From the NCBI GenBank assembly GCA_019695305.1, contig JAIBAG010000022.1, positions 1 to 36,086 on the forward strand: DNA of 36,086 nt. Direction: 5' to 3'. The position numbers were made by a program, and so were the translations under genes. The first letter of the stretch is position 1. Each line of letters begins with the position of its first letter. This stretch comes from a bacterium (lineage in GTDB: Bacteria > UBA10199 > JAIBAG01). The notes under the pieces were generated by a model. That model saw only the letters and a list, made by a program, of their open reading frames with translations, had not been told where the DNA came from and did no database searches. Shown here piece by piece: positions 3,518 to 6,573 of the stretch.

Positions 3518-4450
3518 ATGCATCCACTTGTAACCCAAATGCTGGCCGGTGATAAGCGCGCCTTGGCGCGACTGATGACCTATGTAGATAATCAGCACGA
3601 CGACCTACTGGCTATAATGAGTGATGTGTATGCTTACACCGGTAAGGCTCTTAAAATTGGGATAACGGGTCCCCCGGGTGCTGGCAAATCCACTTTGGTA
3701 GATAAGCTCATTGCCATCTACCGCAAACAAAATAAAAAAGTAGGTGTGGTGTGTATTGATCCCAGTTCGCCGTTTACGGGCGGCGCAGTTTTGGGAGATC
3801 GTATTCGCATGGTAGATCATGGTGCCGACGATGGTGTGTTTATACGCTCGTTAGGTTCCCGTGGTTCGCACGGCGGTTTGTCGAGGGCTACACGGGATGT
3901 GGTAAGTTTACTGGATGCCAGCGGAATGGATGTGGTGTTGGTAGAAACAGTAGGAGTAGGGCAGACCGAGCTTGATATTATGAGTGTGGCTCATACTACG
4001 GTGGTGGTGTTGGTTCCGGAATCGGGCGATACCATTCAAACCATGAAGGCTGGCCTTATGGAAATTGCCGATGTGTTTGTGGTAAACAAGGCCGACCGCG
4101 ACGGTGCCGATCGCATTTTTGCCGAACTTAAAAGTTTAACCGAATTATTTCATAAAGATATTGTGGTAGAAGTTCTTAAAGTACAGGCCGCTAATAACAT
4201 TGGCGTTGGTGAACTGGAACAGGCTATTACGCGCCATACGGCTCAAAAATCGCAGAAAAAAGAAGATGTGCTTTCTTTAATGCTGGCTGAAGAAGTGATG
4301 GATGTGGTTTTTTCAGAGCTGCATCAGACACTTAAAAAAGAGTTTAAAGCCGATGGCTTGCTTAAAGAGGCTTTTAAAGAACTGAAAAGTAATAAAAATC
4401 CCTACCGGGCTGCCGCCCATATTTTGAAAAAGCTCCGGATTTCATCTTGA
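3518..4450 (+). CDS. meaB: MeaB/ArgK-family G-protein chaperone
   Basis: A 310-residue P-loop GTPase of the MeaB/ArgK (G3E-related) family, which protects and reloads the B12-dependent methylmalonyl-CoA mutase or related acyl-CoA mutases. Visible motifs are Walker A GPPGAGKST near residue 51, the switch region CIDPSSPFTGGAVLGDR, the Walker-B-like VLVETVGVGQTELD, and the base-recognition motif VNKAD. Its length matches the family. It starts only about 8 bases after the T-run of the preceding terminator and has no clear SD. No mutase subunit is present in the window, so the partner must be encoded elsewhere; the acyl-CoA ligase and SCP2 neighbours are consistent with odd-chain or branched acyl-CoA metabolism, which is inference. 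Confidence 0.9.
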   Translation: MHPLVTQMLAGDKRALARLMTYVDNQHDDLLAIMSDVYAYTGKALKIGITGPPGAGKSTLVDKLIAIYRKQNKKVGVVCIDPSSPFTGGAVLGDRIRMVDHGADDGVFIRSLGSRGSHGGLSRATRDVVSLLDASGMDVVLVETVGVGQTELDIMSVAHTTVVVLVPESGDTIQTMKAGLMEIADVFVVNKADRDGADRIFAELKSLTELFHKDIVVEVLKVQAANNIGVGELEQAITRHTAQKSQKKEDVLSLMLAEEVMDVVFSELHQTLKKEFKADGLLKEAFKELKSNKNPYRAAAHILKKLRISS

Positions 4451-4500
4451 CAGGAGCCTATTTGATCTATAAACCATTGTTTTTGTTGTAATTTTGTCGA

Positions 4501-4691
4501 GTACTGCATTATTTGATTGTATGGATGCTGTACCAGTGTTTGTAACAAATTAATTTATTAGATTTTTATATGAATTAATTTGAACAAACACTAGCACTGC
4601 TTCTATTATATTTTTGTGGATGCTGTACTGGGGTTTGTAATCAAATTAGTCTATTTAGATTTTTAAATGAATTAATTTGAACAAACCCCAG
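4501..4691 (+). repeat. Two tandem ~93-base hairpin elements abutting a tRNA gene
   Basis: Copy 1 (4501-4593) and copy 2 (4594-4690) align along their whole length: both begin G[T/C]ACTGC, share TGGATGCTGTAC (4522-4533 and 4617-4628), and then form a long AT-rich hairpin. In copy 1 AGTGTTTGT (4535-4543) pairs with ACAAACACT (4584-4592); in copy 2 CTGGGGTTTGT (4628-4638) pairs with ACAAACCCCAG (4681-4691). The inner stem CAAATTA.../...TAATTTG is kept in both. The outer-stem bases differ between copies but change on both arms together. The right arm of copy 2 overlaps the first two bases of the tRNA. There is no poly-T tract, so these are not ordinary terminators. The rest of the 4451-4689 gap holds no gene that I can support. 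Confidence 0.8.
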
Positions 4692-4761
4692 GCGCGTAGC
4701 TCAGTGGTAGAGCACTTGCTCGACACGCAAGTGGTCAGCGGTTCAATCCCGCTCGTGCCTA
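4690..4761 (+). tRNA. tRNA-Val (anticodon GAC)
   Basis: A full cloverleaf folds: acceptor AGGCGCG/CGTGCCT (4690-4696 with 4754-4760, one G-T pair), D-arm GCTC/GAGC, anticodon stem CTTGC/GCAAG with the 7-base loop TCGACAC, a 5-base variable loop, T-arm AGCGG/CCGCT with TTCAATC, and discriminator A73. The anticodon GAC (4722-4724) reads GUC/GUU Val codons, and A73 agrees with valine identity. CCA is not encoded. Oddity: the base 5' of the anticodon (position 33) is C rather than the almost invariant U. Confidence 0.85.
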
Positions 4762-4771
4762 CAGTAACAAC

Positions 4772-4842
4772 AGTGAATAGTGAATAGTGAATAGTGAATG
4801 GAACGATTTTTACCATTCACCATCCACCATCTACCATCCACC
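4772..4842. repeat. Palindromic array of 7-base repeats between tRNA-Val and thrS
   Basis: Four perfect AGTGAAT units (4772-4799) are followed, after an 11-13 base spacer, by four CCATYYA units (CCATTCA, CCATCCA, CCATCTA, CCATCCA; 4813-4840). CCATTCA is the complement of TGAATGG at the end of the first block, so the two halves can pair as a long imperfect hairpin. Related degenerate units recur at 12185-12213. Confidence 0.8.
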
Positions 4843-4848
4843 TTTAAA

Positions 4849-6573
4849 ATGGTTTGTAGACCCGGACATGAAAACGATCCTGTAGAAAAAATGCGTCACT
4901 CAGCGGCTCACGTGATGGCGTCGGCCGTTGTGAGCTTGTATCCTAAAGCCAAAGTAACCATTGGTCCTGTGATCGATAACGGATTTTATTACGACTTTGA
5001 AATTGAAGAACCCATTCATCCTGATGATTTAAAAAAGATCGAAGCGAAGATGAATGAGATTATTAAAAAGGGCGAGCCCTTTGTGCGTAAAGAAGTATCC
5101 AAAGAAGAAGCGATCAAGTTTTTTAAGGAACGCGGTGAAAAATTTAAAGTAGAAATTATTGAAAATTTTCCTCCCGGCGAGGTAATTAGTCTTTATCAAC
5201 ACGGTGATTTTGTGGATTTATGCAAAGGTCCTCACGTTGAAAAAACTTCTGAGATTAAAGCGTTTCATCTTCAAAGTGTTGCGGGTAGCTACTGGCGTGG
5301 CGATGAAAAACGCGAGCGCCTGCAGCGTATTTATGGAACTGCATTTGCGAGCGATGCCGATTTAAAAGCACATCTTGCCATGCTCGAAGAAGCCGCCCGT
5401 CGTGACCACCGCAAATTAGGACGTGAACTTGAGCTTTTCAATTTTCATCCCGAAGCCCCGGCGTCTCCTTTCTTTTATCCTAAAGGAGCCATGGTTTATA
5501 ATTTGCTGATTGATTACCTGCGTGGTCTTTATAAAAACCAGGGTTATTCCGAAGTGATCACGCCGCAAATTATTGATACCACCTTGTGGGAGCGTTCCGG
5601 GCATCTCGAGCATTTTAAAGACAATATGTATTTTACCGAAGTGGAAGGGCGCGAGATGGCGGTAAAGCCCATGAACTGTCCCGGGCATTGCCTGATGTTT
5701 GGCGAAAAGAAATGGTCGTATCGTGAACTGCCTGTTCGTTTTGCCGATTTTGGACGCTTGCATCGTTTTGAACGCAGTGGGGTGACCCATGGCTTAACCC
5801 GTGTGCGGACCTTTTGCCAGGATGATGCCCATATTTACTGCACTCCCGAACAAATGGATGGTGAGATTGAAGCCTTTCTTAAAATGGTGCAGCAGATTTA
5901 CGATCACTTTGAGTTTAAAAACGTGCATGTAGCTTTGGCCACACGCCCCGAAAAATATATTGGGACCCCCGAAATCTGGGATACGGCCGAAAGAAAGCTG
6001 CAGGAAGCCCTTACCAAGGCCGGCCTTACCTTTACTATTAACCCCGGTGAAGGGGCCTTTTATGGGCCTAAAATTGAGTTTCAGGTAAGTGACGCGTTGG
6101 CGCGTCGCTGGCAGCTGGGCACTCTCCAGGTTGATTATTCAATGCCCGACCGTTTTAACCTCAATTATATCGATTCTAGCTCGTCGGCTTGTAGGCCTGT
6201 AATGCTTCACAGGGCTGTTTTGGGGTCGCTAGAGCGCTTTTTTGGTATTTTATTGGAGCATACGGCCGGGGCTTTCCCGTTTTGGCTATCTCCCGTTCAG
6301 GTGCAATTAATACCAATTACCGATGGACAAATAGACCATGCTTTAGGTATTAGAGATAAACTAAGGCTTTTAGGCTACCGTGTGGATGTAGATACCCGCA
6401 ACGAAAAGCTGGGCCTTAAAATACGCGAAGCTCAGCTTAAAAAAATCCCTGTCATGGCGGTTTTAGGAGCCAAGGAAGTAGCGGCTAATCAGGTGAGTAT
6501 CCGTGACCGCAAGGCTGGTGATTTAGGTGTGAAAAGCACAGAAGATTTTTTTGAATTGTTAAAGTCATATTAA
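4849..6573 (+). CDS. thrS: Threonyl-tRNA synthetase lacking the TGS domain
   Basis: A class II synthetase charging tRNA-Thr. From ATG 4849 it is 574 residues. The editing (N2) domain is complete: the HSAAH pair near residue 17 and CKGPH near 125 supply the zinc-like editing site. The catalytic core has motif 2 around RFADFGRLHRFERSG, the zinc ligands in MNCPGHC, DDAHIYC and MLHRAVLGSLERF (motif 3), and the usual C-terminal anticodon-binding domain. The ~60-residue N-terminal TGS domain of E. coli ThrRS is absent. The frame extends upstream to ATG 4798, but that stretch is translated 7-base repeat (FTIHHLPSTF) and is unlikely to be real; ATG 4891 is another possible start. None has a good SD. 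It heads the infC-rpmI-rplT-pheST-ihfA operon. Confidence 0.9.
   Translation: MVCRPGHENDPVEKMRHSAAHVMASAVVSLYPKAKVTIGPVIDNGFYYDFEIEEPIHPDDLKKIEAKMNEIIKKGEPFVRKEVSKEEAIKFFKERGEKFKVEIIENFPPGEVISLYQHGDFVDLCKGPHVEKTSEIKAFHLQSVAGSYWRGDEKRERLQRIYGTAFASDADLKAHLAMLEEAARRDHRKLGRELELFNFHPEAPASPFFYPKGAMVYNLLIDYLRGLYKNQGYSEVITPQIIDTTLWERSGHLEHFKDNMYFTEVEGREMAVKPMNCPGHCLMFGEKKWSYRELPVRFADFGRLHRFERSGVTHGLTRVRTFCQDDAHIYCTPEQMDGEIEAFLKMVQQIYDHFEFKNVHVALATRPEKYIGTPEIWDTAERKLQEALTKAGLTFTINPGEGAFYGPKIEFQVSDALARRWQLGTLQVDYSMPDRFNLNYIDSSSSACRPVMLHRAVLGSLERFFGILLEHTAGAFPFWLSPVQVQLIPITDGQIDHALGIRDKLRLLGYRVDVDTRNEKLGLKIREAQLKKIPVMAVLGAKEVAANQVSIRDRKAGDLGVKSTEDFFELLKSY

Follow-up and report, generated by a model that had tools for sequence, protein, structure and literature searches.

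A tandem pair of probable MITEs in the 5' leader of a tRNA-Val gene, members of a new family of known type

Two long hairpins, head-to-tail, lie between a predicted promoter and the first base of a tRNA-Val gene, and the question that this locus raises is whether they are parts of the tRNA transcript that matter as RNA or insertions that came to rest there. The window, by which we mean the whole stretch of 36,086 nucleotides that was analysed, corresponds to contig C22 in a draft genome of 2.78 Mb (G000, hereafter the own genome). Both units lie between a presumed TTGACA-type promoter, at the 3' end of the meaB-type gene, and tRNA-Val(GAC), the gene order tRNA-Val(GAC)-thrS being kept in most genomes of the class. 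The predicted promoter suggests that the units are transcribed as part of the tRNA-Val 5' leader. We conclude, with a probability of about 0.88, that they are a tandem pair of MITEs, whose family is new within a known class of element. The features of the locus, all on the + strand, are as follows.

3518..4450, +, MeaB-type GTPase gene (Pfam PF03308, E 3e-79), its 3' end overlapping the presumed promoter
4447..4452, +, TTGACA, presumed -35 box of the tRNA-Val promoter, 5' of both units, as judged from relatives
4499..4500, +, left target-site position, now GA where TA is expected; fresh copies have TA, and with the preceding C this gives C[TA]G
4501..4591, +, unit 1 (W1), 91-bp body of the putative mobile element; covariance match 4500-4594, 103 bits with model R2, for which it was a training copy
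4535..4592, +, long hairpin of unit 1, AGTGTTTGT ... ACAAACACT; fold z = -5.1; its pairs covary across 16 family members
4592..4593, +, TA common to both units, inside CACTAGCAC, intact
4594..4688, +, unit 2 (W2), 95-bp body of the putative mobile element; covariance match 4593-4691, 109 bits with model R2, for which it was also a training copy
4630..4689, +, long hairpin of unit 2, GGGGTTTGT ... ACAAACCCC; fold z = -7.5
4689..4690, +, right target-site position, now CA where TA is expected; A4690 is base +1 of the tRNA, and fresh copies elsewhere have TA
4690..4762, +, tRNA-Val, anticodon GAC (ARAGORN; Rfam RF00005, 65.8 bits)
4798..6573, +, thrS (threonyl-tRNA synthetase), downstream (Pfam)

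Just 3' of the tRNA, at 4769-4840 of the window, there is also a tandem AACAGTGAATAGTG / AATAGTGAATAGTG followed by ACCATTCACCATCC / ACCATCTACCATCC, which are roughly mutual inverts.

The two head-to-tail hairpin units described in the initial annotation are real. Each is made of G(T/C)ACTGC, an AT-rich spacer, GATGCTGTAC and the long hairpin, and the two bodies (91 and 95 bp) are 82% identical. The predicted folding energy was -20.2 kcal/mol for the hairpin of unit 1 and -29.5 kcal/mol for that of unit 2 (z = -5.1 and -7.5, respectively), and none of 200 dinucleotide shuffles folded as well as either. The 12-base leader noticed before each hairpin is indeed repeated in each unit, but the unit begins further upstream, at G(T/C)ACTGC. 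The compensatory changes that had been claimed between the units are present in the outer stem, where there are two double pair-keeping changes (A-T to G-C and T-A to G-C), but compensation is incomplete, since unit 2 shows one G-T change and one broken pair (C-A) in its inner stem. The terminal inverted repeats are weaker in the window copies, and the main palindrome spans the middle to the right end. An integron attC site was considered and dropped by eye, the hairpin being without the AAC/GTT box layout.

Further copies, which the initial annotation had proposed to seek by blastn and a covariance model, were present in the own genome and in seven other genomes of the phylum. In the own genome, blastn with the tandem pair found a full copy between DoxX-type and TetR-type genes (contig C11), and a pattern search found one on contig C10, flanked by genes for an ABC-transporter ATPase and MlaD, that has lost nearly all of the long hairpin; neither has a tRNA nearby. 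The near-exact hairpin deletion on C10 (G000:C10:35774-35816, L028) leaves AGT/ACACT; a loss of this sort at the palindrome base is what replication slippage would be expected to give. A covariance model (R2) trained on the two window copies and the C11 copy added copies on C49, C24 and C17, and weaker ones on C20 and C10 came from model R3, for which 16 copies were used. The C11 and C17 copies have TA on both sides.

Beyond the own genome, R2 matched G007, G008, G022 and G038. We ran R3 on 46 genomes of the phylum, the own genome included (the class search likewise covered 46), and found copies in eight of them (G000, G003, G005, G007, G008, G011, G022 and G038); thus seven of the other 45 carry copies when R2 and R3 are taken together, and the comparison genomes all lie outside the genus and family of the source. 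E-values reached 1e-18 per genome. The bodies are mostly 82-103 bp long with no gene inside, and are therefore too short for a transposase gene. The copies of G022 are 96-99% identical. What ties the own-genome type to that of G005 is the model score (41 bits), the architecture and the TA/CTAG flanks, their identity not being high. A blastn search of 146 genomes with unit 1 gave AT-rich noise only outside the own genome; a pattern scan of genome contigs gave four chance matches only; on viral contigs a loose 17-base pattern gave chance matches only and stricter family patterns none; and searches of phages and plasmids gave short AT-rich matches or none. The only Rfam match was to the tRNA, weaker ones being far under the gathering scores. 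Within the searches made, this MITE family is confined to one bacterial phylum; the family is new and its kind is known.

Alignment of 16 sequences showed that 92.7% of hairpin cells were paired, compared with 81.1% in shuffles, a percentage that leans towards structure because the added copies were found by a structure-rewarding model. The double changes are stronger support: 12 of the 23 hairpin pairs were changed on both sides, compared with 5.6 in shuffles. When partners were slid by one to three columns, pairing fell to 28-45%.

The identical copies of G005 are independent of the structure-rewarding model. This genome has about 15 copies, with 15 end matches in each orientation (forward and reverse). 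Among the loci fetched, copies at six did not differ at any of the 101 bp and a seventh was identical over 100 bp, with unrelated flanks; two copies on its contig C71 have common flanks, which places that locus in a larger repeat. The left flank ended in CTA in every G005 copy fetched and the right flank started with TAG or TAT, the exceptions being two decayed loci (CAG and TGG). Both ends of the element read TAGT(C/G)CTTCGACAA(C/T)TTAAT in inverted orientation. Terminal inverted repeats of about 20 bp, with at most one mismatch at each end, were found in the G005, G011 and G003 copies; across the family the end signatures are TAGT(C/G)CTTCGACAA or TAGTACCTTGACC. In the own genome, G007, G038 and G022, TA likewise flanks most copies at both ends. 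Since the right flank is TAT at two loci and the left flank is TTTTA at the own-genome C11 and C10 loci, the C and the G lie outside the element, and TA is therefore the duplicated part and CTAG the preferred target. At 17 of 32 loci the target position coincided with the stop codon (TAG 16, TAA 1) that closes a neighbouring open frame of 100 codons or more, a count that may include genes truncated by the insertion. In the whole window, CTAG is strongly depleted (24 sites versus 131 expected from base composition).

Taken as a family, these are short sequences without a transposase gene, with dispersed near-identical copies, terminal inverted repeats and a target-site duplication, as in MITEs; this bears out the suggestion of a small non-autonomous mobile element, identical copies being found at unrelated TA-flanked loci. 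The TA duplication and the CTAG preference are those of IS630/Tc1-mariner elements, and we infer mobilisation by a transposase of that type, the enzyme family being deduced from target and duplication only because no transposase with matching ends was found. Matches to DDE_3 occurred in only three of the eight copy-bearing genomes (G003, G022 and G005), as fragments or, among those read, without these ends, and gave no autonomous IS630-type partner; this is weak evidence, as the genomes are incomplete drafts and repeats break assemblies. Single unmatched ends at G003:C2, G005:C195 and G029:C5 were read, and none bounded a transposase. The G003 locus (G003:C2:9462, L338 about 4462-4730) has a longer, roughly 270-bp non-coding version with inverted repeats of about 46 bp, which begins with CTAGTCC and ends with GGCACTAG; G005:C195 is a solo right hairpin and G029:C5 a lone end.

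ISY100, of the Tc1/mariner superfamily, duplicates TA on insertion (PMC2170065), and IS630 prefers TA in CTAG (Tenzen and Ohtsubo 1991, as cited in PMC2170065); TA insertion and the 2-bp duplication are common to both and to the element described here, whereas IS630 and ISY100 are autonomous with a transposase and the present element is geneless, with no end-matched partner found. RUP, the repeat unit of pneumococcus, is a MITE attributed to IS630-Spn1 and, by its description, is likewise non-coding and intergenic, about 107 bp long, with terminal inverted repeats and a TA target (PMC2229807). An autonomous partner has been proposed for RUP, which has 108 copies; for the present family no partner was found, and copies number about 1-15 per genome. 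The Correia/NEMIS elements of Neisseria, also likened by description, are about 107/155 bp long with TA ends and long stem-loop transcripts (PMC2229807), but they have another host, and RNase III cutting has been proposed for NEMIS.

How the pair came to lie at tRNA-Val may be read from the ends. Its left border reads GTC[GA] and its right border [CA]GGCGCG, and the TA at the junction of the two units is intact. In same-order relatives (L212, L214 and L215) the tRNA start reads T|AGGCGCG; given a C in front, this would be a CTAG site, and the tRNA would begin with its A and G. The simplest reading of these sequences would be insertion into GTC[TA]GGCGCG, followed by decay of T to G and T to C at the outer ends. 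The AG that the initial annotation saw to be common to the end of unit 2 and the tRNA start is then best read as a decayed TA duplication (C4689 A4690) plus the G of the target. Elements of this family, non-coding and non-autonomous with palindromic ends, insert into TA, with a preference for CTAG, and leave the TA duplicated; the mechanism is presumably cut-and-paste. One copy would have landed in a C[TA]G site spanning the boundary between leader and tRNA-Val, two bases on either side, and the second would then have entered a TA of the first to give the head-to-tail pair, in this probable order; a second landing would be possible because insertion keeps a TA at each end. The pre-insertion site without the units would read ...GTCTAGGCGCG.

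The spacing of the promoter agrees in scale with that of relatives: TTGACA (4447) is 243 bp from the tRNA, or 53 bp when both units are deleted in silico, and the -35 box is 55-81 bp from the tRNA in L218, L225, L233, L212 and L227. TTGACA was found 55 to 223 bp 5' of tRNA-Val in L212, L213, L214, L218, L225, L227, L231 and L233, and some other relatives have longer tRNA-Val leaders filled with other sequence. The element was absent from the tRNA-Val leaders of the relatives examined, which have unrelated sequence in its place. Unrelated long hairpins are found in the tRNA-Val(GAC) leader of L213, L215, L217, L236 and L237, several sharing blocks such as GAGGA...GACGA.GGC.ACG, and these leader hairpins had no Rfam match; the leader of L212 has a REP-like GTAGGGGCGTACGGCCGTACGCCC palindrome. 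The tRNA-Val leader seems to be a common landing place. In L215, L219 and L231 (G004, G017 and G001), the first 12-19 bases of the tRNA are repeated about 105 bp upstream in the same orientation (AGGCGCGTAGCTCAGTGGT in L215), with a hairpin coming next; this suggests a small insertion whose direct repeat derives from the tRNA, or else a tRNA that was partly duplicated.

The proposal that the element targets tRNA 5' ends was not supported, the target being TA in CTAG. A tRNA or tmRNA lay beside three of about 35 insertions examined (the window pair upstream of its tRNA, the C17 copy about 50 bp upstream of the tmRNA, and copy G008a 40 bp downstream of tRNA-Arg), and about 32 had neither nearby. 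This proportion is perhaps above chance; as the copies are scattered through several genomes of the phylum, the tRNA is most likely a mere landing site.

Two readings bear on the mechanism and on the hairpins themselves. The hairpins might be single-strand substrates of a Y1 (HUH) transposase, REP/REPIN or IS200/IS605-like, that cuts after CT and targets CT|AG. The element ends in ...CACT|AG, left flanks mostly finish in CT, TnpA-REP enzymes cut at CT beside hairpins (PMC8266576), and there are two Y1_Tnp genes in the own genome and eight matches in G022; the element also resembles the REP/REPIN repeats of TnpA-REP (RAYT) in being a short palindromic extragenic repeat with CT beside the hairpin. 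It differs from them in its TA duplication, its terminal inverted repeats and its length of about 100 bp, and no RAYT gene was bounded by it. The left flanks of C11 and C10 are TT|AG and right flanks are sometimes TAT or TAA, which a TA duplication fits better than a CT cut, and the 20-bp terminal inverted repeats of the G005 copies also argue against a Y1 enzyme. Furthermore, none of 16 Y1_Tnp loci scanned in the own genome and relatives was bounded by the element, one match lying about 1 kb away, and G038, an assembly only 82% complete, has six copies yet no Y1_Tnp was seen in it. We therefore regard mobilisation by a Y1 transposase as unlikely. The two Y1_Tnp (RAYT-like) genes of the own genome (L209 on C35, L210 on C9) lie near GAGTCTCAAAATCGGACT...GAGTCTCATTTT repeats, with GTACC(T/C)GGTAC palindromes on both sides of the L209 gene; these are possibly the genes' own REP family. 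As for chance or simple AT-rich palindromes without a common origin, AT-rich loops do give many weak blastn matches elsewhere, but E-values to 1e-18, the loss of pairing on sliding and the identical dispersed copies contradict this reading, whose probability is negligible.

The units might otherwise be a conserved structured RNA or a processing signal of the tRNA-Val transcript, under selection for RNA structure, as the initial annotation had suggested. Their position between promoter and tRNA and the pair-keeping changes, between the units and across the family, would agree with this. However, most copies have no tRNA nearby, the leaders of the relatives examined do without the element, and Rfam gave no match; positive evidence for such an RNA was not found, and we consider it highly improbable. 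Paired changes between units can come from template switching or conversion between palindrome arms. They are likewise expected from correction of palindrome arms and from the need for matching transposon ends, and family-wide pairing, being expected of a palindromic transposon, shows no selection on RNA. Recruitment of a MITE pair, in which the leader hairpins, the second of them abutting the acceptor stem of tRNA-Val, control processing (e.g. by RNase III and RNase P) or expression of the tRNA-Val(GAC)-thrS region and the GC-richer stem of unit 2 was selected for that role, is very unlikely. The window units, as MITEs in a presumed transcribed 5' leader that is removed by RNase P, are probably tolerated passengers, and would thus be neutral.

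These results add a MITE family with a clean TA/CTAG signature, and they show that pair-keeping changes between adjacent hairpins near a tRNA can stem from a palindromic transposon rather than a functional RNA. Because the element starts with G, a TAG stop is preserved after insertion, and landing at stop codons could let the element settle at gene ends without damage.
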